The translations under genes were made by a program, and so were the position numbers. A DNA stretch of 64,000 nucleotides, from assembly GCF_002078605.1 (NCBI RefSeq), contig NZ_MSJR01000001.1, positions 496,001 to 560,000 on the forward strand, in the 5' to 3' direction. Of the stretch, positions 53,726 through 63,002 are shown in pieces. The notes below the pieces were generated by a model, which saw nothing but the letters and a program-made list of their open reading frames with translations, did no database searches and was not told the DNA's origin. This DNA is from Salegentibacter sediminis. GTDB lineage: Bacteria; Bacteroidota; Bacteroidia; Flavobacteriales; Flavobacteriaceae. Position 1 is the first letter of the stretch, and each line of letters starts with the position of its first letter.

Positions 53726-53909
53726 GCGATTTCGATACAAGTATAATCATTTTTAAGAAATAGCAAAGGCAATTCCTTATAGCATTTAACAGGATTAGCG
53801 ATCATTTTTAACACAAAATTTTAGGATAAAACCAAGGCTCTGAAATCTAACCTCATAGGTGTATTCAAAAGTCTTTCAGTGTAATAGGAGAGAGAAATTT
53901 ATCAACAAT

Positions 53910-53939
53910 GTGGTAAAAAGTGGTAAAAAGTGGTAATAT
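53910..53939 (+). promoter_or_regulatory. MraZ box: three tandem GTGGTAAAAA decamers
   Basis: GTGGTAAAAA at 53910-53919 and 53920-53929, and GTGGTAATAT at 53930-53939, exactly one helical turn apart. MraZ binds three direct repeats with 10-bp period in both E. coli (TGGGN) and mollicutes (AAAGTGG-type); AAAGTGG with three-base spacers is literally present here. A fourth GTGGTAAA at 53972 contains the start codon. The repeats cover the -33 region of the promoter. Confidence 0.75.
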
Positions 53940-53945
53940 TTTCAA

Positions 53946-53953
53946 TATATTTG
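53946..53953 (+). promoter_or_regulatory. -7 box of the dcw cluster
   Basis: TATATTTG, full match to TAnnTTTG, 18 nt before the GTG of mraZ. Instead of a -33 TTTG the upstream position is taken by the decamer repeats, suggesting that binding of MraZ there either replaces or blocks the -33 contact. Confidence 0.6.
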
Positions 53954-53971
53954 ACTTTGAAAATCTAACTA

Positions 53972-54439
53972 GTGGTAAATCTCATTGGAACATATGAATG
54001 CAAGGTAGACGCTAAAGGCCGGTTAATGGTGCCTTCAGCGTTAAAGAAGCAGCTTGCGCCTATGTTGCAGGAGGGATTTGTATTGAAGCGAGCCGTTTTT
54101 CAGTCTTGTTTGGAGTTATATCCTATGGAAGAGTGGGATAAACTGATGAAGAAGATGAATGGTCTCAATCGTTTCAAGAAAAAGAATAATGATTTTATCA
54201 GAAGATTTACTGCGGGAGTGAAAAGTGTGGAGGTAGATGCAAACGGTAGGTTGTTAATTCCGAAGGATCTTGTGGGTTTTGCCGGAATCGGGAAAGAAAT
54301 CGTCCTTAATTCGGCAATTAATATTATCGAGATCTGGGATAAAGAGCAGTACGAGAAGGCTATTTATGAGTCTACCGATGATTTTGCTGAACTGGCTGAA
54401 GAGGTAATGGGAAATGACGATCTAGATGGAATATCATAA
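53972..54439 (+). CDS. mraZ: Transcriptional regulator MraZ
   Basis: 155-aa AbrB/SpoVT-like double-domain DNA-binding protein. LIGTYECKVDAKGRLMVPSALK (two blocks) is the first swapped-hairpin domain with the DxxGR motif; VEVDANGRLLIPKDLVGFA is the second. It forms a ring oligomer that binds its own promoter in the bacteria studied. Starts with GTG 53972, which sits in a fourth copy of the operator repeat. Overlaps rsmH by 14 bases, so expression of the cluster is coupled. Confidence 0.95.
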   Translation: MVNLIGTYECKVDAKGRLMVPSALKKQLAPMLQEGFVLKRAVFQSCLELYPMEEWDKLMKKMNGLNRFKKKNNDFIRRFTAGVKSVEVDANGRLLIPKDLVGFAGIGKEIVLNSAINIIEIWDKEQYEKAIYESTDDFAELAEEVMGNDDLDGIS

Positions 54440-55322
54440 TCCGGTTTTATTAAAAGAATCTGTAGACGGTCTTAATATAAAGGAAGACGGGGTTTATGTT
54501 GATGTCACTTTTGGTGGCGGCGGGCATTCCCGGGAGATCCTGAAGAGACTGGGGCCTAAGGGAAAGCTTTATGCTTTTGACCAGGATAAAGATGCTTTGC
54601 AGAATAAAATAGATGACGAGCGTTTTACCCTTATCAGTGAAAATTTTCGATTCATCAAGCGGTTTCTGAGATTCTACGGGATAAAGCAGGTGGACGGCAT
54701 CTTAGGAGATTTTGGGGTTTCTTCTCATCAGTTTAATGAAGCCGGGCGTGGTTTTTCAACCCGTTTCGATGCTAAACTGGACATGAGGATGAATCAGGAT
54801 AGCAAGCTTAGTGCTTTTGAGGTGATCAATCAATATTCAGAAGAGCAATTAAGGCAGTTGTTTTACCAATATGCCGATTTAAAGAATGCTCCCAAACTTG
54901 CAAAAATAATTGTGGAGTCCAGGGAGCAGAAGGAAATTGAAAGCAGTGAACAATTAAATGAGCTTTTGAAGCCACATCTTTTTAAAGGGAAGGAGAATAA
55001 AATCCTGGCTCAAATCTATCAGGCGATTAGGATAGAGGTGAACCAGGAAATTGAAGTGCTAAAAGAATTTTTAAAGCAAACAGAAGAGCTTGTGGTAAAA
55101 GGTGGGCGCATTAGCCTTATCTCTTATCACTCGCTGGAAGACCGTTTGGTGAAGCGCTTTATTAGAAGTGGATTATTTGAAGGTGAACCGGAAAAGGATT
55201 TCTACGGGAATATTTCGGTTCCTTTTAAAAAAGTAGGAGGCTTAATTGTGCCGTCCAAAGAAGAAATTGAAAGAAATAGTCGTGCCCGTAGTGCGAAACT
55301 TCGTGTAGCCAAAAGAATTTAA
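54426..55322 (+). CDS. rsmH: 16S rRNA (cytosine(1402)-N4)-methyltransferase RsmH (MraW)
   Basis: 298-aa SAM-dependent enzyme modifying the P-site nucleotide C1402. HNPVLLKESVDGLNI start; SAM site YVDVTFGGGGHSREIL; GILGDFGVSSHQFNEAGRGF; and SYHSLEDRLVKRFIR near the C-terminus. Second gene of the dcw cluster as is usual; overlaps mraZ, 16 bases before ftsL. Confidence 0.96.
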   Translation: MEYHNPVLLKESVDGLNIKEDGVYVDVTFGGGGHSREILKRLGPKGKLYAFDQDKDALQNKIDDERFTLISENFRFIKRFLRFYGIKQVDGILGDFGVSSHQFNEAGRGFSTRFDAKLDMRMNQDSKLSAFEVINQYSEEQLRQLFYQYADLKNAPKLAKIIVESREQKEIESSEQLNELLKPHLFKGKENKILAQIYQAIRIEVNQEIEVLKEFLKQTEELVVKGGRISLISYHSLEDRLVKRFIRSGLFEGEPEKDFYGNISVPFKKVGGLIVPSKEEIERNSRARSAKLRVAKRI

Positions 55323-55338
55323 AACCTCTTAGAGAATT

Positions 55339-55656
55339 ATGAAAAAGGGTTTTTACAATCTTCTTAGAGCGAATTTCCTAATTAGCCGAGATGCGGTTAA
55401 TAACTGGAGGTTTATCGTTTTTTGCACGCTGCTGGCTATAATAATGATCGCCAGTTCTCATAGTGCCGAACGAAAGGTTCATGAAATAGCCCAGCTGCAT
55501 AATGAAGTACGGGAGTTGAGAAGTGAGTTTGTAGACAGGCGTTCCGCGCTTATGAAAATAAAGATGGAATCTACAATCACCAGGAAAATGAGTGAAAGGG
55601 GTGTTGGGCCATCAGAAACACCACCTTTTAAAATAAGAGTAAATATCGCTGAATAA
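55339..55656 (+). CDS. ftsL: FtsL-like cell division protein
   Basis: 105-aa bitopic membrane protein. Short cytoplasmic N-terminus, one membrane segment (about residues 25-43; WRFIVFCTLLAIIMIASSH), then a periplasmic leucine-heptad helix (VHEIAQLHNEVRELRSEFV). Sequence identity to proteobacterial FtsL is not expected; the call rests on topology, size and the position between rsmH and ftsI. It bridges FtsW-FtsI and the FtsB/Q part of the divisome. Confidence 0.85.
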   Translation: MKKGFYNLLRANFLISRDAVNNWRFIVFCTLLAIIMIASSHSAERKVHEIAQLHNEVRELRSEFVDRRSALMKIKMESTITRKMSERGVGPSETPPFKIRVNIAE

Positions 55657-55657
55657 A

Positions 55658-57664
55658 ATGGCAATAACCGAAAAAGGCATATTAAACAGGTTGTACTTCG
55701 TGGCAGCCTGTATGTTTTTGTTTGCGGTTGGGGTAGCCGTCAAACTTCTGGATATCCAGTTTGTAGATGGCGATCATTATAAACAATTAGCTGAAGAGCG
55801 TACCTACAGAAATTTTAAAATACCTTCAAACCGGGGTAATCTATACGATTCTAATGGGAGCTTACTCGCTACCTCTATTCCCAAATACGATATTAGGTTT
55901 GACGCGGTAACTGTTTCCGATAAGGATTTCCAGGAGAATATAGGTCCGCTTTCCAAAGAGTTGGCGGCGATGCTGGGTAATTCAGCCTCTTATTATGCGC
56001 AGAAATTACGTGCGGCCAGAGCCAATAAGCAGCGTTACCTTCTCATAACAAGAGGTCTTGGTTATTCAGAATTTCTTAAGCTGAAGCAGTTTCCTATGTT
56101 TAACCTTGGGACTTATAAGGGCGGAATGATCGTGGAACAGCGTACCGTGCGGGAGCACCCCCTGGGAAAAATGGGAGAACGAACCGTTGGGTATGAGCGC
56201 CAGGATGACCAGGGTTATTTCACCCGGGTTGGTCTCGAAGGAGCTTATAGCTCGTATTTAAGAGGAACCGATGGCCGCCGACTAAAACAAAAAATTGCTA
56301 AGGGACAATGGAAACCCATTAGCGATAATAACGAGGTAGAGCCTAAAGACGGTTATGATGTGATTTCCACTATAGATGTAAACATCCAGGATATAGCTCA
56401 TCATGCTCTCTTGAAACAGCTGGAAAAATACGAAGCCGATCACGGCAGCGTGGTAGTGATGGAAACCGCAACAGGAGAGATCAAGGCAATTTCCAATTTA
56501 GGAAGAACCTCCAAAGGGACTTATTATGAAAAACTTAATTATGCCGTAGGTGAATTACACGAGCCAGGTTCGACCTTCAAATTAATGGCCATGGTTGCTG
56601 CCCTCGACCAAAAAGTGGTGGATACCGGGGATATTGTGGCAACCGGAAATGGACGCATGCCTGTTCGCGGTAGAATGGTGCGGGATTCAAAACATGGGGG
56701 ATATGGAGATATAAGCGTAGCAAGGGCTTTTGAAGTTTCTTCCAATGTTGGCACCGTAAAGATCATTTACGATAACTATAAAGATCAGCCTCAAAAATTC
56801 ATAGATAAGCTAAACTCGATGAATCTCAATGAACCCCTGGGACTTGATATAAAGGGAGAGGGGATCCCATATATTCCGCAGCCTGGCGATAAAAAATGGT
56901 CGGGTCTTTCTTTGCCGTGGATGGCTTATGGATATGGAAGTATCCAGATGACGCCTCTGCAAACCCTTACATTTTACAATGCCGTGGCAAACAACGGGGA
57001 GATGGTGAAACCGAGGTTTATCAAAGAGGTGAAGGAATGGGATAAAACCATTCAGAAATTTGATAAAGAGGTGATCAATCCTGCCATTTGCTCTCCGGAA
57101 ACTCTTTCCAAAGTACAGGAGATGCTTAAAAATGTTGTAGAGCGTGGTACGGCTAAAAGTTTGTATTCCCCAAATTTCTCTATGGCCGGGAAAACCGGAA
57201 CCGCCCAAACCGAATACTGGATGGATGACTGGGCTTCAAATAGACGTTATATTTCGTCGTTCGTGGGGTACTTTCCAGCCGAAAATCCCAAATATACCAG
57301 TATAGTGGTAATTCATAAACCCGATAACAGCGTGGGTTATTATGGTGCCGACGTTAGTGGTCCTGTTTTTAAGCGTATTGCCCAAAAGATTTATACCGAT
57401 ACCCCAATAGAAGATGAACTGGATTCTATAGAAGTGAAAAATGAAATTATAGAAGATGATTTCGAAAAATACTACACCAAGATCCAGGATGAAAAAATAA
57501 TTATGCCCGATGTTGTTGGGATGCCTGCAATGGATGCGGTGTCGCTTTTAGAAAATCTTGGTCTCGAAGTAAAATTCCGTGGAAAAGGAAAGGTGAAGGC
57601 ACAGTCGGTTTCGGCAGGGCAGAAAATAAAAAATAACCAACAGGTAAACCTGCATTTAAGTTGA
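55658..57664 (+). CDS. ftsI: Septal peptidoglycan transpeptidase FtsI (PBP3) with PASTA domain
   Basis: 668-aa class B penicillin-binding protein. N-terminal membrane anchor (about 12-32), PBP dimer domain (about 60-235), transpeptidase domain with nucleophile S305 in the SxxK motif STFK, S361-S-N, and K512-T-G, then one C-terminal PASTA domain (about 605-668; MPDVVGMPAMDAVSLLENLG). It forms septal cross-links with FtsW. One base after ftsL; the stop overlaps the murE start. A single PASTA is usual in Bacteroidota; most proteobacterial FtsI proteins have none. Confidence 0.95.
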   Translation: MAITEKGILNRLYFVAACMFLFAVGVAVKLLDIQFVDGDHYKQLAEERTYRNFKIPSNRGNLYDSNGSLLATSIPKYDIRFDAVTVSDKDFQENIGPLSKELAAMLGNSASYYAQKLRAARANKQRYLLITRGLGYSEFLKLKQFPMFNLGTYKGGMIVEQRTVREHPLGKMGERTVGYERQDDQGYFTRVGLEGAYSSYLRGTDGRRLKQKIAKGQWKPISDNNEVEPKDGYDVISTIDVNIQDIAHHALLKQLEKYEADHGSVVVMETATGEIKAISNLGRTSKGTYYEKLNYAVGELHEPGSTFKLMAMVAALDQKVVDTGDIVATGNGRMPVRGRMVRDSKHGGYGDISVARAFEVSSNVGTVKIIYDNYKDQPQKFIDKLNSMNLNEPLGLDIKGEGIPYIPQPGDKKWSGLSLPWMAYGYGSIQMTPLQTLTFYNAVANNGEMVKPRFIKEVKEWDKTIQKFDKEVINPAICSPETLSKVQEMLKNVVERGTAKSLYSPNFSMAGKTGTAQTEYWMDDWASNRRYISSFVGYFPAENPKYTSIVVIHKPDNSVGYYGADVSGPVFKRIAQKIYTDTPIEDELDSIEVKNEIIEDDFEKYYTKIQDEKIIMPDVVGMPAMDAVSLLENLGLEVKFRGKGKVKAQSVSAGQKIKNNQQVNLHLS

Positions 57665-59127
57665 AGATTTTAAAAGACATACTATACAGAGTTTCTATGG
57701 AGGCCGTAACCGGGAATACCTCGGTTGCAGTTAATAATATTCAGTTTGATTCCCGTAGGGTGGAATTAAATGATGTTTTTGTAGCCATTCGCGGAACACT
57801 ATCTGATGGCCATAAATTTATTGAACAGGCTGTAAACAAGGGAGCCCTGGCAGTAATTTGTGAGGAGTTACCTGAAAATATTATTAATGGGGTTACTTAT
57901 GTGCAGGTTAAGGACTCTCAAAAAGCGCTGGCTTTTATGGCAGCGAATTTCTATGACAATCCTTCAGAAAAATTAAAACTTGTAGGAGTAACGGGCACCA
58001 ATGGTAAGACCACTATCGCAAGCCTGTTATATCAACTTTTTACAAAAGCCGGTTTTAAAGTTGGGTTGCTTTCAACCGTAAAAGTAATGGTAGGGGAAAA
58101 GAGTTTTGATGCCGTTAGAACTACCCCCGATTCCCTCAGTATAAATTCTTACCTCAAACAAATGAATGATGAGGGTGTGGAATTCTGTTTTATGGAAGTT
58201 AGTTCTCACGGGATTGCCCAGCATCGAACAAGTGCTCTGGAATTCAAAGGAGGGATTTTCACCAATCTGTCTCACGATCATCTCGATTATCACAAGGATT
58301 TTGCTGAATACCGTGATGTGAAGAAACGCTTCTTCGATGAGTTACCGGCATCGGCTTTTGCGCTTACCAACGTAGATGATAAAAACGGATTGGTAATGCT
58401 CCAGAATACCAAAGCGGTAAAATATACTTACGCGCTCAAATCTCACGCCGATTATAAAGCACAGATCCTGGAAAATCAATTCACAGGTTTATTGCTTAAA
58501 GTAAATGGCCAGGAAGTCTGGACCAAACTAATCGGGAATTTTAATGCCTATAATATTCTTGCAATCTATGCTACGGCAGAACTACTGGGTCTGGAAACTC
58601 TGGAAACCCTTAAAATTATCAGCGAGCTGGAGTCGGTAAGTGGAAGGTTTCAATATTTGATTTCAGATAAAGAGAAAATTACTGCAATTGTAGATTACGC
58701 CCACACGCCCGATGCACTTAAAAATGTGCTTGAAACCATTAATAGCATCAGGACAAAGAACGAAAAATTAATCACGGTTGTTGGTTGTGGGGGAGATAGA
58801 GATAAGACAAAACGACCCAAGATGGGCCATATTGCTTCGGCCTTAAGCACCGATGTGGTATTCACCAGCGATAACCCAAGAACCGAGGATCCCGATAAAA
58901 TCATAGAGGAAATAGAAGCCGGCGTGGAGCCACAGAATTTCAAAAAAACCAATTCGGTTACCAACAGAAAACAGGCAATAAAAACGGCCTGCCAAATGGC
59001 AGCTAAAAATGATATAATTCTTATTGCCGGAAAAGGGCATGAGACCTATCAGGAGATTAATGGGGAGAGATTTGATTTTGAGGACCTCAAAATAGTAGCA
59101 GAATTTTTAAAGCAATTAGAAAAATAA
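57661..59127 (+). CDS. murE: UDP-MurNAc-L-Ala-D-Glu:meso-diaminopimelate ligase MurE
   Basis: 488-aa Mur ligase adding the third peptide residue. TTG start at 57661 overlaps the ftsI stop (TTGA). P-loop TGTNGKTT (residues 111-118) and the DNPR motif (404-407), which selects meso-diaminopimelate over lysine, so this organism has DAP-type peptidoglycan. [14 protein letters not shown] is the UDP-substrate domain. After it murF is absent; a palindrome fills the gap to mraY. Confidence 0.95.
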
Positions 59128-59164: not shown

Positions 59165-60400
59165 ATGTTATACTACCTCTTTGAATATTTAGATGCAGAA
59201 TACCAGGTGCCGGGGGCGCGCCTGTTTCAGTATATCTCCTTTAGGTCGGCGATGGCAATTATCCTTGCGCTTGCAATTTCTACTATTTACGGGAAAAGGA
59301 TTATCAATTATCTAAGAACCAAACAAATTGGGGAAAGCGTAAGAGACCTTGGGCTCGAAGGACAGAATGAAAAAGCAGGAACTCCTACTATGGGTGGGCT
59401 TATTATTATTATTGCCACTATAATTCCGGTATTGCTTTTCGCCAGGCTGGATAACATGTATGTTATTTTACTTATTGTCACCACGCTTTGGATGGGGGCA
59501 ATTGGCTTTATTGACGATTACATTAAAACTTTTAAGAAGGATAAAGAAGGCTTGTCTGGGAAATTTAAGGTGATAGGTCAGGTTGGGCTTGGACTTATAG
59601 TTGGTGCTACGATGTATTTTCATCCTGCGATTACTGTTAAAGAAGAAACCAATCGGCCCGCAACTGAACAGCAGGAATTGTTGGTTGATACCGATGAGAT
59701 CGTTATGGGGCCTGAGGAAAAAACAACAACTACTACTATTCCCTTTGTAAAGAATAATGAATTTGATTACTCCAGCCTTATTACCTGGATAAACCCTGTG
59801 CTTAAAAATTACGCCTGGCTCATTTTTATCCCTATCGTGATCTTTATAGTGACCGCCGTTTCTAATGGTGCCAATTTAACCGACGGGATTGATGGTCTTG
59901 CTGCGGGCTCTTCAGCCATAATTGTCCTAACCCTCGGGATTTTCGCCTGGGTTTCAGGGAACATCATTTTTTCAGATTACTTAAATATAATGTACATCCC
60001 GCGCTCGGGAGAAATGACCATTTATATCACTGCCTTAGCCGGGGCTTTGGTAGGGTTTCTTTGGTATAATACCTATCCCGCGCAGGTTTTTATGGGAGAT
60101 ACGGGAAGTTTGACTATTGGTGGGGTAATCGCGGTATTGGCTATAGCCACCCGAAAGGAATTATTGATCCCTATTCTATGCGGAATTTTTCTGATGGAAA
60201 ATCTTTCGGTGGTCCTACAGGTTGCCTGGTTCAAGATCACCAAACGAAAATATGGAGCAGGAAGAAGAATTTTCCTGATGTCTCCTTTACATCACCATTA
60301 TCAGAAAAGGGGATATCACGAAAGTAAGATCGTTGTGAGGTTCTGGATTGTGGGCATTTTTCTGGCAATTGTGACCATCATCACGCTTAAGGTAAGATAA
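59165..60400 (+). CDS. mraY: Phospho-MurNAc-pentapeptide transferase MraY
   Basis: 411-aa inner-membrane enzyme forming lipid I on undecaprenyl phosphate. Ten membrane segments. Active-site blocks: [13 protein letters not shown] with D117/D118, [12 protein letters not shown], and [13 protein letters not shown] hydrophilic insertion of about 45 residues (158-203, acidic and Thr-rich) lies between membrane segments and makes the protein longer than the 360-aa E. coli enzyme. The stop shares a base with the murD ATG. Confidence 0.95.
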
Positions 60401-61770
60401 TGAGGAGGGATTGGAGAAATATAAGCGAAGCAGGTTTCCAAAAGCTGGTGATCCTGGGAGGCGGAGAAAGCGGAGCCGGGACTGCTATTTTGGGAAAGAA
60501 GGAAGGCTTTAAAGTCTTTGTTTCAGATAAAGGAAAGATTAAAGAAAAGTATAAAGAAGTTCTTGAAAATATTGAGGTTGAATGGGAGGAATTGCAGCAT
60601 ACAGAAGCTAAGATCCTGGATGCCGATGTGGTGATGAAAAGTCCGGGAATTCCAGATACAGCTCCTTTGGTGGTGAAGCTGAAAGAACTTGGAGTTGTGG
60701 TTATTTCGGAAATAGAATTTGCCAGTGCTTTTACTTCAGCAAAAATAATTGGAGTAACCGGAAGTAACGGGAAAACCACCACCACGAAGTTCATTTATCA
60801 TATTCTGAAGGCTGGGAATATTTCTGTGGGAATGGCCGGGAATGTGGGCGATAGTTTCGCTAAACAAGTAGCTGAAACCAACCCCGACTGGTTTGTGCTT
60901 GAATTAAGCAGTTTTCAGCTGGACGGGATTGTGAATTTCAGGCCCGAAATAGCTGTGTTAACCAATATAACACCAGATCATCTGGATAGATATGATTATA
61001 AGCTGGAGAATTATGTAGCATCAAAATTCAGAATAACCGAGAATCAAACCCAGGATGATTATTTCATTTTTGATGCCGATGATGCGATTATGGAGGAATG
61101 GTTAAAAAACAACCAGGTGAAAGCACAACAGCTCCCATTTTCATTGGAGAAAAAAATGGAAAATGGAGCCCAAATAGAAAACGAAAACATTGTAATAAAC
61201 ATTAATAACGATCAATTTAATATGCCAACAACAACATTAGGTCTGCAAGGTAAGCACAATACCAAAAATGCAATGGCTGCTGCTACGGTAGCGCAATTAT
61301 TACGAATTAGAAAGGAAACCATACGAGAGAGTATGGAAAATTTTCAGGGGGTAGAACACCGCCTTGAAAAGGTTTTGAAGATCAATAATGTTCAGTATAT
61401 AAACGATTCCAAGGCGACGAATGTAAATGCCACATTTTATGCTCTTGAGAGTATGGAATCTGAAACGGTTTGGATCGTTGGCGGAGTAGATAAAGGTAAT
61501 GTGTATGATGACCTTTTGCCTTTGGTAAACGAGAAAGTGAAAGGGATTATTTGCCTGGGCGTGGATAATGCGAAGCTGCTAAATACCTTCGGAAATTGTG
61601 TTGAAAATATCGTGGAAACCCAATCTATGGCTGAGGCAGTAAAGATGGCTTACAGAATGGCCGAAAAAGGTGATAGTGTTTTGTTATCGCCGGCTTGTGC
61701 AAGCTTTGATCTTTTTGAGAATTATGAAGACCGCGGGAGACAATTTAAGGACGCGGTAAGAAATTTGTAG
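60400..61770 (+). CDS. murD: UDP-MurNAc-L-alanine:D-glutamate ligase MurD
   Basis: 456-aa Mur ligase. N-terminal UMA-binding Rossmann domain (LVILGGGESGAGTAIL), P-loop GVTGSNGKTTTTKF (118-131), LELSSFQLDG and TNITPDHLDRYDY, C-terminal domain with YINDSKATNVNATFYALESM in blocks. Starts about 10 residues earlier than most homologues because the ATG overlaps the mraY stop (TAATG). Confidence 0.95.
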   Translation: MRRDWRNISEAGFQKLVILGGGESGAGTAILGKKEGFKVFVSDKGKIKEKYKEVLENIEVEWEELQHTEAKILDADVVMKSPGIPDTAPLVVKLKELGVVVISEIEFASAFTSAKIIGVTGSNGKTTTTKFIYHILKAGNISVGMAGNVGDSFAKQVAETNPDWFVLELSSFQLDGIVNFRPEIAVLTNITPDHLDRYDYKLENYVASKFRITENQTQDDYFIFDADDAIMEEWLKNNQVKAQQLPFSLEKKMENGAQIENENIVININNDQFNMPTTTLGLQGKHNTKNAMAAATVAQLLRIRKETIRESMENFQGVEHRLEKVLKINNVQYINDSKATNVNATFYALESMESETVWIVGGVDKGNVYDDLLPLVNEKVKGIICLGVDNAKLLNTFGNCVENIVETQSMAEAVKMAYRMAEKGDSVLLSPACASFDLFENYEDRGRQFKDAVRNL

Positions 61771-61799: not shown

Positions 61800-63002
61800 A
61801 TGAGCAACTTTTTTTCAAATCTTAAAGGAGATAAGGTTATCTGGGCAACCGCCGGCTTGTTGGCAATATTTTCATTTTTGCCGGTATATAGCGCCAGTAG
61901 TAACCTTGCATACCTCTATGGGGATGGAAGTACGTTTAAATATGTGGTGGTTCACTTTTTTCATTTGGTGCTTGGTTTTTCCTTGCTTTTTGCGGTTCAC
62001 AAAATACCCTATCACTATTTCCGGGGACTATCCATTTTATTTCTGCCGGTAGTAATCGTACTCTTATTATATACAGCGTTTCAGGGGACCATTATTGACG
62101 GTGCAAACGCCAACCGTTGGATACAAATACCGGTTCTAGGAGTTTCATTTCAATCGTCTACCCTGGCTTCGGTGGTTTTGATGGTTTACGTAGCTCGTTA
62201 CTTATCTAAAATGACCCACAAAACCTTAACATTTAAGGAGTCTATTTTACCGCTTTGGGTGCCTGTGGGTTTGGTTTTAATGCTAATTTTGCCGGCTAAT
62301 TTTTCCACTACAGCCATTATATTCAGTATGGTTCTGGTATTGATGTTCTTAGGGGGGTATCCTGCAAAATATCTCGGTATTATAGTCGCGGCAGGATTAC
62401 TCTTGCTCACTATGTTCATTCTAACAGCAAAAGCTTTTCCCGGACTTTTACCTAACAGGGTAGATACCTGGGCAAGTAGGATTGAGAATTTTTCGAATGA
62501 TGAAGATACTGAAGCCGACTATCAAATCGAAAAAGCGAAGATCGCTATCGCTCGTGGTGGAATAACAGGTACGGGAATTGGGAAAAGCGTACAGCGCAAT
62601 TTTTTACCCCAGTCCTCTTCCGATTTTATTTATGCGATAATAGTTGAGGAAATGGGATTGATAGGAGCATTTGGCGTAATGAGTGCATACCTGATGCTGC
62701 TTTTCCGAATAATAATTGTGGCAACCAAAGCCAACACAATGTTTGGGAAACTGGTTGTCATGGGGGTGGGTTTACCAATAATTTTCCAGGCGCTCATCAA
62801 TATGGCGGTGGCGGTAGAATTGTTTCCGGTTACCGGGCAAACCCTGCCTTTAATCAGTAGTGGAGGAACCTCGATTTGGATGACCTGTATGGCCCTGGGG
62901 ATTATCCTTAGCGTTAGCGCCAAAAGGGAAGAAATTAAAGAAGCTGAAGAGCGATTAAACGAAGAAGAAAATCCGCTTGATATTTTAAGCGAAGCGATAT
63001 AA
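61800..63002 (+). CDS. ftsW: Septal peptidoglycan polymerase FtsW
   Basis: 400-aa SEDS-family glycosyltransferase with ten membrane segments that polymerises lipid II at the septum, partnered with Fts[44 protein letters not shown] and [14 protein letters not shown] are family marks. FtsW rather than RodA because of its dcw location. One base before murG. Confidence 0.95.

Follow-up and report, generated by a model that had tools for sequence, protein, structure and literature searches.

A putative MraZ operator and an adjoining nine-letter box in the dcw promoter of Salegentibacter sediminis

The direct repeats that precede mraZ in the dcw cluster of Salegentibacter sediminis are very probably a MraZ operator. 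Judging from related promoters, it is likely that they serve MraZ at its own dcw promoter, and that a nine-letter box adjoining them receives a second, replication-linked factor. We read the dcw promoter as a predicted composite of these two elements. The repeats, their conservation, the missing -33 element and the occurrence of the same box elsewhere are seen directly in the DNA. The window referred to below is the whole stretch of DNA that was analysed, 64,000 nucleotides long (Table 1).

Table 1. Features of the mraZ promoter region, the dcw cluster and two further promoters of the same genome
Feature	Position	Strand	Basis or remark
TTATCAACA box, directly 5' of the array	53899..53907	+	9-mer type of the family's hup, dnaB and nrdB promoters
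Repeat 1, GTGGTAAAAA, putative MraZ box	53910..53919	+	Sequence, uniqueness in the genome, conservation
Repeat 2, GTGGTAAAAA, at the would-be -33 place	53920..53929	+	Sequence, comparison of family promoters
Repeat 3, GTGGTAATAT	53930..53939	+	Sequence
TATATTTG, presumed Bacteroidota-type -7 element	53946..53953	+	Starts 16 bp downstream of the first letter of repeat 3
Fourth site, GTGGTAAA, containing the mraZ GTG start codon	53972..53979	+	Minority feature of the family
mraZ, 155 aa	53972..54439	+	TIGR00242, PF02381
rsmH (mraW)	54426..55322	+	Domain and family models
FtsL-like protein	55339..55656	+	PF19579
PBP-type transpeptidase, at the FtsI place in the cluster	55658..57664	+	PBP model matches below cut-offs
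murE	57661..59127	+	Family model
mraY	59165..60400	+	Family model
murD	60400..61770	+	Inspection of the translation only
ftsW	61800..63002	+	Inspection of the translation only
Box pair, dnaB promoter (L214)	G000:C1:894169-894197		Exact 20-bp TTWTNMACA pair
Box pair, hup promoter (L215)	G000:C19:118776-118804		Exact 20-bp TTWTNMACA pair

The repeat array and its conservation

The mraZ promoter stretch of the window reads TTATCAACAATGTGGTAAAAAGTGGTAAAAAGTGGTAATATTTTCAATATATTTGACTTTGAAAATCTAACTAGTGGTAAATC. Three copies of a decamer at an exact 10-bp period had been claimed in a preliminary description of this DNA. The period is correct for GTGGTAA, the only 7-mer in the 64-kb window with three copies at period 10, but not for the full decamer, since the third repeat ends in TAT instead of AAA and GTGGTAATAT agrees with GTGGTAAAAA in 8 of 10 letters. 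GTGG-N6-GTGG-N6-GTGG has a single match in the 3.26-Mb genome, against none for the reversed control. The arrangement, GTG-core direct repeats about 10 bp apart upstream of mraZ, is the one by which a MraZ operator is recognised.

Among the best 80 of 578 matches, the closest named relatives of the MraZ protein belong to Salegentibacter (85% identity), followed by other Flavobacteriaceae. Its relatives in the PDB are 1n0e, 9qlr and 9qlg; 9qlr, 9qlg and 9sx6 are recently solved MraZ structures, and no paper on these three entries was found in the open-licence literature. MraZ is present in 279 of 296 genomes of the phylum. A match is absent from all nine f24 and both f10 genomes of the phylum draw, and a loss of mraZ in these two lineages is possible. 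The start codons of mraZ at 110 family loci are TTG in 59, GTG in 40, ATG in 10 and TTA in one (L006, where an ATG comes next); this scarcity of ATG hints at weak translation of mraZ in the family.

Conservation of the array upstream of mraZ in relatives, on which the earlier claim of an operator had been staked, is borne out at two depths. The phylum set comprises 110 loci (90 read first and 20 more as a check) from 33 of 50 numbered families, f1 being the family of the window, taken as Flavobacteriaceae; the loci were drawn from the stronger MraZ matches, and the best-sampled family, f17, is left out together with 16 others. Two or more exact GTGG at 10 bp occur upstream of mraZ in 85 of these 110 loci, the 33 families taken together. 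Among the first 90 loci, 69 have at least two exact copies (0 to 0.04 per locus in shuffled sequences), 45 have at least three (0 in shuffles) and 21 have only one. The additional 20 loci include 16 with at least two copies and one, L310, with no array at all. The 25 of 110 loci that show one exact GTGG or none in a 10-bp run comprise 4 of the additional 20 and, within the first 90, 9/10 loci of f4, 7/7 of f16, 2/2 of f9, 2/5 of f34 and 1/30 of f1.

Within the family, at least 280 of 397 genomes and 176 of 237 genera have two repeats suitably spaced from mraZ, with none in the reversed control, by a count that uses the pattern alone with a strict mraZ anchor. Two or more repeats are in register in 80/80 named family loci, and the array stands before TAnnTTTG in 110/110. 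Family counts include related genomes, kinship being corrected for only in the tree test of the fourth site described below. The repeat unit itself varies in the phylum, from GTGGTAAAA in the window's family to GTGGGAAAA in f2 and f4 and GTGGGGAA in, for example, f29 and f34. In many loci of genus g2 (L016, L017, L018 and others), one or two extra GTGG occur upstream of the box, some 21 and 32 bp ahead of the first repeat, and the MraZ array may be longer in this genus.

Control of the whole dcw cluster had also been proposed. An operator-like array does front the cluster and is tied to mraZ in most phylum loci; the regulation itself is predicted from this arrangement. No MraZ site in Bacteroidota was found among the matches listed in a search of open-licence literature, from which most subscription journals are lacking.

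As the preliminary description had it, a fourth GTGGTAAA, placed 42 bp from the third repeat, holds the GTG start codon of mraZ. This motif by itself has 10 copies in the window, where 2.26 would be expected. Of 110 family loci, 19 have it at the mraZ start codon, and at least 20 of 397 family genomes, from 14 of 237 genera, contain a fourth GTGGK site. As a generally conserved part of the operator the fourth site is rejected on these numbers, and it is kept as a lineage-specific feature.

Somewhat less probable than the contrary, in our estimate, is that the start-codon GTGGTAAA acts as a real fourth operator, reached by a MraZ ring on the same face of the DNA. The distance from the third repeat is 41, 42, 50 or 51 bp for 18 of the 19 GTGGTAAA starts, compared with 12 of the 88 starts lacking an initial GTGG (Fisher p about 1e-11). 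Three other GTGG starts lie at 41, 50 and 50 bp. Ten further GTGGK sites away from the start codon, eight of them in Winogradskyella, are all at exactly 40 bp, as is one more in G510. In the 397-genome set the fourth sites with GTGGTAAA are at 40, 41, 42 or 50 bp, as reckoned by hand from coordinates. Measured from the first repeat, sites 62 or 71 bp away would fall at registers 6 and 7 if the ring had eight subunits; an octameric MraZ ring is stated for Mollicutes in the available part of one source (PMC7761207). Against such an operator, one Tenacibaculum locus (L149) has its GTGGTAAA at 45 bp, and the fourth sites of the 397 genomes that read GTGGTC or GTGGTT stand at 45, 49, 51, 53, 53 and 54 bp, with one GTGGGAAT at 51 bp. 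GTG GTA AAY also doubles as the code for a protein start, MVN. When 109 loci are placed on a tree, only 7 changes and 5 independent pairs remain, and the phasing is not significant; because the changes are so few, it is statistically unsecured. The looping of the fourth site with the first three that had been suggested thus keeps its phasing by raw count, in what is a minority feature without significance on the tree.

Promoter layout and the sign of regulation

TAnnTTTG, which we take to be the Bacteroidota -7 consensus, is present in the window as TATATTTG, and the TTG of a -33 element is absent. The same holds throughout the family: a TTG 17-21 nt before the -7 box occurs in 0 of 110 mraZ promoters, compared with 19 of 19 hup promoters, for which a less strict test accepted any TAnnTTTG within the final 130 bp, and from which L247 and L248 of the 20 hup loci were left out. 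The earlier contention that the repeats take the place of the -33 element is upheld by this comparison. A canonical -33 element hidden inside the repeats is rejected, as all 110 family promoters lack the TTG.

The last repeat starts 14-16 bp before the -7 box in 110/110 family loci. The same interval to TAnnTTT is found in f1 (30/30 loci, in addition to the 80/80 named ones), f3 (6/6), f8 (3/3), f6 (one locus) and f5 (3/5); it is 21 bp in f7, and 11 and 13 bp in f11. Over the whole of the window's class, 46 of 66 loci have TAnnTTT on the downstream side of the array. The strict pattern is unmatched in f2 (6/6), f4 (10/10), f5 (2/5) and f9 (2/2), and in f2 and f4 inspection by eye gives a -7-like TATAAATTTG or TTATTTTG downstream of the array. 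A TTGAC-type promoter is found in 0 of the 66 loci inside the class, and 3 of the 80 named family loci match both the TTGAC and the TAnnTTT patterns.

Outside the class the order is reversed in 30 of 44 loci (22/24 and 8/20), where a TTGAC-type promoter, with a TTGAC-like -35, a TA-rich -10 and the array following, is upstream of the repeats; the TTGAC pattern is loose and this count has no shuffle control. The families concerned are f13, f14, f16, f19, f20, f23, f25, f26, f29, f34, f35, f38, f39, f44 and f45. Downstream TAnnTTT occurs in 2 of the 44 loci, one in f16 with both types and L307 (f37) with this type alone, and 13 of the 44 have neither promoter type or no array. The array downstream of the promoter, a layout that the preliminary description did not contain, is therefore common outside the class, and the array upstream of the -7 box predominates inside it; the putative operator has changed sides relative to the promoter within the phylum, some families being unclassified.

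The layout suggests how MraZ would act. Its subunits would sit next to one another over the three repeats, all on a single DNA face, spanning about -47 to -21 (from a deduced start site) and thus the -33 region. MraZ would then cover the place where sigma would contact a -33 element, in a promoter that has only the -7 box, and would decide the access of the polymerase to this remaining element. Repression by occlusion, that is autoregulation, would be the most likely outcome, with activation nearly as likely given that no -33 element is present. We infer both MraZ binding and the sign of regulation from these comparisons.

Activation, in which MraZ would stand in for the -33 contact, is taken here as a possible but not the expected mode. 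The absence of a TTG at -33 in 110/110 promoters speaks for it, and a last repeat that always begins 14-16 bp before the -7 box suits an activator touching sigma. On the other hand, the repeats alone could have displaced the TTG, NCBIfam names the MraZ family a repressor, and MraZ of E. coli is a repressor. The mycoplasma results, as far as the available part of the source goes, point both ways: overexpression of MraZ went with more FtsZ in M. gallisepticum, but loss of MraZ raised the mraW, MG_223 and ftsZ transcripts in M. genitalium (PMC8475190).

A box shared with replication genes

The box TTATCAACA beside the array was absent from the preliminary description. Of 110 family loci, 105 have TTAT[CT]AACA no more than 70 bp ahead of the first GTGG, where shuffled sequences predict 0.75, and in 103 the distance is 11-12 bp; L006, L025, L109 and L124 depart from this pattern. 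The wider TTAT[CT][AC]ACA[AT] matches 107 of 110 loci, and position 6 is A in 106 of the 107, a tally for which rows were chosen by motif and only the count of matching loci is used. In f2, all six loci have TTAT[CT]AACA 21 bp before the first exact GTGG, and we read one presumably degenerate repeat in between. A pattern of box plus two repeats, without a mraZ anchor, is found in 95 of 120 family genomes and 94 of 119 genera, once per genome and with no match in the control; the places that it shares with the anchored search (e.g. G321, G408) coincide.

The same box recurs in pairs. Strict box pairs with a 20-bp period have 72 matches in 49 of 60 family genomes, against 3 control hits. Thirty of the 72 were fetched as loci and typed by tblastn with family probes, which placed 20 between fmt and hup, 4 between accA and dnaB and one at nrdB; no probe gene was found in the other 5 of 30. 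Two of these probe-less pairs lie inside genes (L237, L252) and one (L255) has a ribonucleotide-reductase small-chain domain nearby. The hup, dnaB, nrdB and gyrA assignments were compared with Pfam or NCBIfam models; fmt and accA were identified by eye. The genome of the window has exactly two exact 20-bp TTWTNMACA pairs, those of the dnaB and hup promoters. Single genomes have a 20-bp pair at gyrA (L213) or boxes at a 12-bp step at xerD (L262), and three have boxes at a 13-bp step at a SPOR/HU-CCDC81 gene (L258, L259, L263). The recurrence of the hup and dnaB pairs across Flavobacteriaceae suggests a replication regulon.

A second factor bound at TTAT[CT]AACA, common to the promoters of HU, the DnaB helicase and ribonucleotide reductase, would tie the expression of division genes to replication. 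Such a common factor, and its identity, we infer from the sharing of the box. Tentatively, and with rather less than even confidence, we propose for Flavobacteriaceae a single replication-linked regulator, either a shifted DnaA or an unnamed factor, at hup, dnaB, nrdBA and dcw. The occurrence of the box in pairs elsewhere and as a single copy at mraZ may mean different proteins.

One candidate for the factor is a DnaA whose preference at position 6 has shifted from C to A and which would wire dcw, dnaB, hup and nrdBA together; we regard this as possible, the odds being against it. In the available part of PMC5742627, the DnaA box is given as TTATnCACA and T435 of E. coli DnaA lies in the recognition helix. 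The window's TTATCAACA has one mismatch to this consensus, and one of 110 family loci (L025) has a matching TTATCCACA. Of 7 family genomes, 6 have Ala at the residue aligned with T435; five of these 6 have A at position 6, and G029 is without a box. In the seventh, G053, the residue is Ser and the mraZ box is the TTATCCACA of L025. Family f4 has Thr in 5/5 and C at position 6 in the boxes near the array, and f6 and f11 pair Ala with A. In the 300 bp preceding mraZ, f4 carries TTATNCACA in 7/10 loci (0.32 expected) and TTWTNCACA in 10/10 (0.84 expected).

Other lineages break the correlation: f2 combines Ser with A, f7 Ala with C, and f3 has Ser with both letters (C in G002 and G138, A in G261). 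Genome G210 of f2 has an origin-like cluster of three TTATCCACA, yet its mraZ box is TTATTAACA. For these mismatches in f2, f3 and f7 and for the f2 cluster, DnaA is not accepted as the settled binder. The f4 boxes, moreover, may serve a divergent neighbour gene, most forward ones lying 146-227 bp before the mraZ start and nearer to that gene, and those that read TGTGGAWAA overlap a GTGG. The flanks of dnaA that were read hold single boxes at most, no pairs and no origin, and the replication origin was not found in the window's family; same-strand box triples are absent from 9 of 10 family genomes, G170 having one loose triple. No link between DnaA and dcw in Bacteroidota was found among the matches listed from the open-licence literature, most subscription journals lacking there.

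The three TTATCCACA of G210 (L304:1501-1531) are at 11-bp steps beside AT-rich tandem repeats, near a cysteine-synthase-like gene named by eye, and look like a replication origin. Canonical DnaA boxes in mraZ upstream regions of f4 include TTATCCACA-TTATTCACA and two TTATCCACA (L050/L264 of G033; L062), those of G033 being in the gap to a divergent queA-like gene, again named by eye.

A plain autorepressor operator like that of E. coli, with TTATCAACA as a mere AT-rich promoter-upstream stretch for the polymerase, is unlikely: MraZ arrays are known and widespread, as far as the available parts of PMC8475190 and PMC7761207 tell, and a box ending about 38 bp before the -7 box suits UP-type contacts, but an AT-rich contact would not need the near-invariant letters of the 107 matching family loci, the fixed place in 103 of 110, or the exactly spaced pairs in replication-gene promoters, where at nrdB the pair is on the other strand.

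If the proposal of one regulator is true, a single copy of its box beside the MraZ array at dcw would wire cell division directly to chromosome replication at the level of transcription, and dcw control in a large bacterial group would gain an input, together with a predicted replication regulon of hup, dnaB, nrdBA and possibly gyrA, xerD and the SPOR/HU gene. To our knowledge, the matching of division-gene expression to replication in bacteria is still an open question, and few studies deal with the regulators of Bacteroidota. The composite element offers exact bases: three repeats, one 9-mer and one missing -33. In the same phylum the MraZ operator would also have left the start site for the -33 region, and this change of side would be a clean case of the re-use of a site with a different promoter type.

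Comparison with known DnaA and MraZ sites

The DnaA box and TTATCAACA are alike save for one letter, and the TTATCAACA type is common to promoters of replication genes; the family's putative site differs in having A, not C, at position 6 in all but one of the matching loci. The canonical DnaA boxes upstream of mraZ in f4 are a further likeness to the DnaA system.

The MraZ operator of E. coli reportedly consists of TGGGN repeats (Eraso and colleagues, 2014). Like the array in the window, it has GTG-core direct repeats with a 10-bp period in the mraZ promoter; autoregulation of dcw, predicted for the window, is a second likeness. In E. coli and Burkholderia cenocepacia, according to the available part of PMC7761207, the repeats are downstream of the -10, those of Burkholderia over the start site. 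The window's repeats lie upstream of the -7 box instead and replace the -33 element, a difference of layout and not of definition. The sites of Mollicutes, in the part of PMC8475190 that was available, are AAAGTG[T/G] repeats, at one locus per genome in M. genitalium, and like the window's combine an A-rich tract with a GTG core in direct repeats. They differ in their promoter type, and an adjoining box of the replication type is not mentioned in that part of the source (PMC8475190). An earlier statement that the window's sequence is closer to the mollicute site than to that of E. coli is of little use, given the span from GTGGTAAAA through GTGGGAAAA to GTGGGGAA within the one phylum. The GTG core and 10-bp logic of the window's array are those of the published MraZ sites, as described in the available parts of PMC8475190 and PMC7761207.
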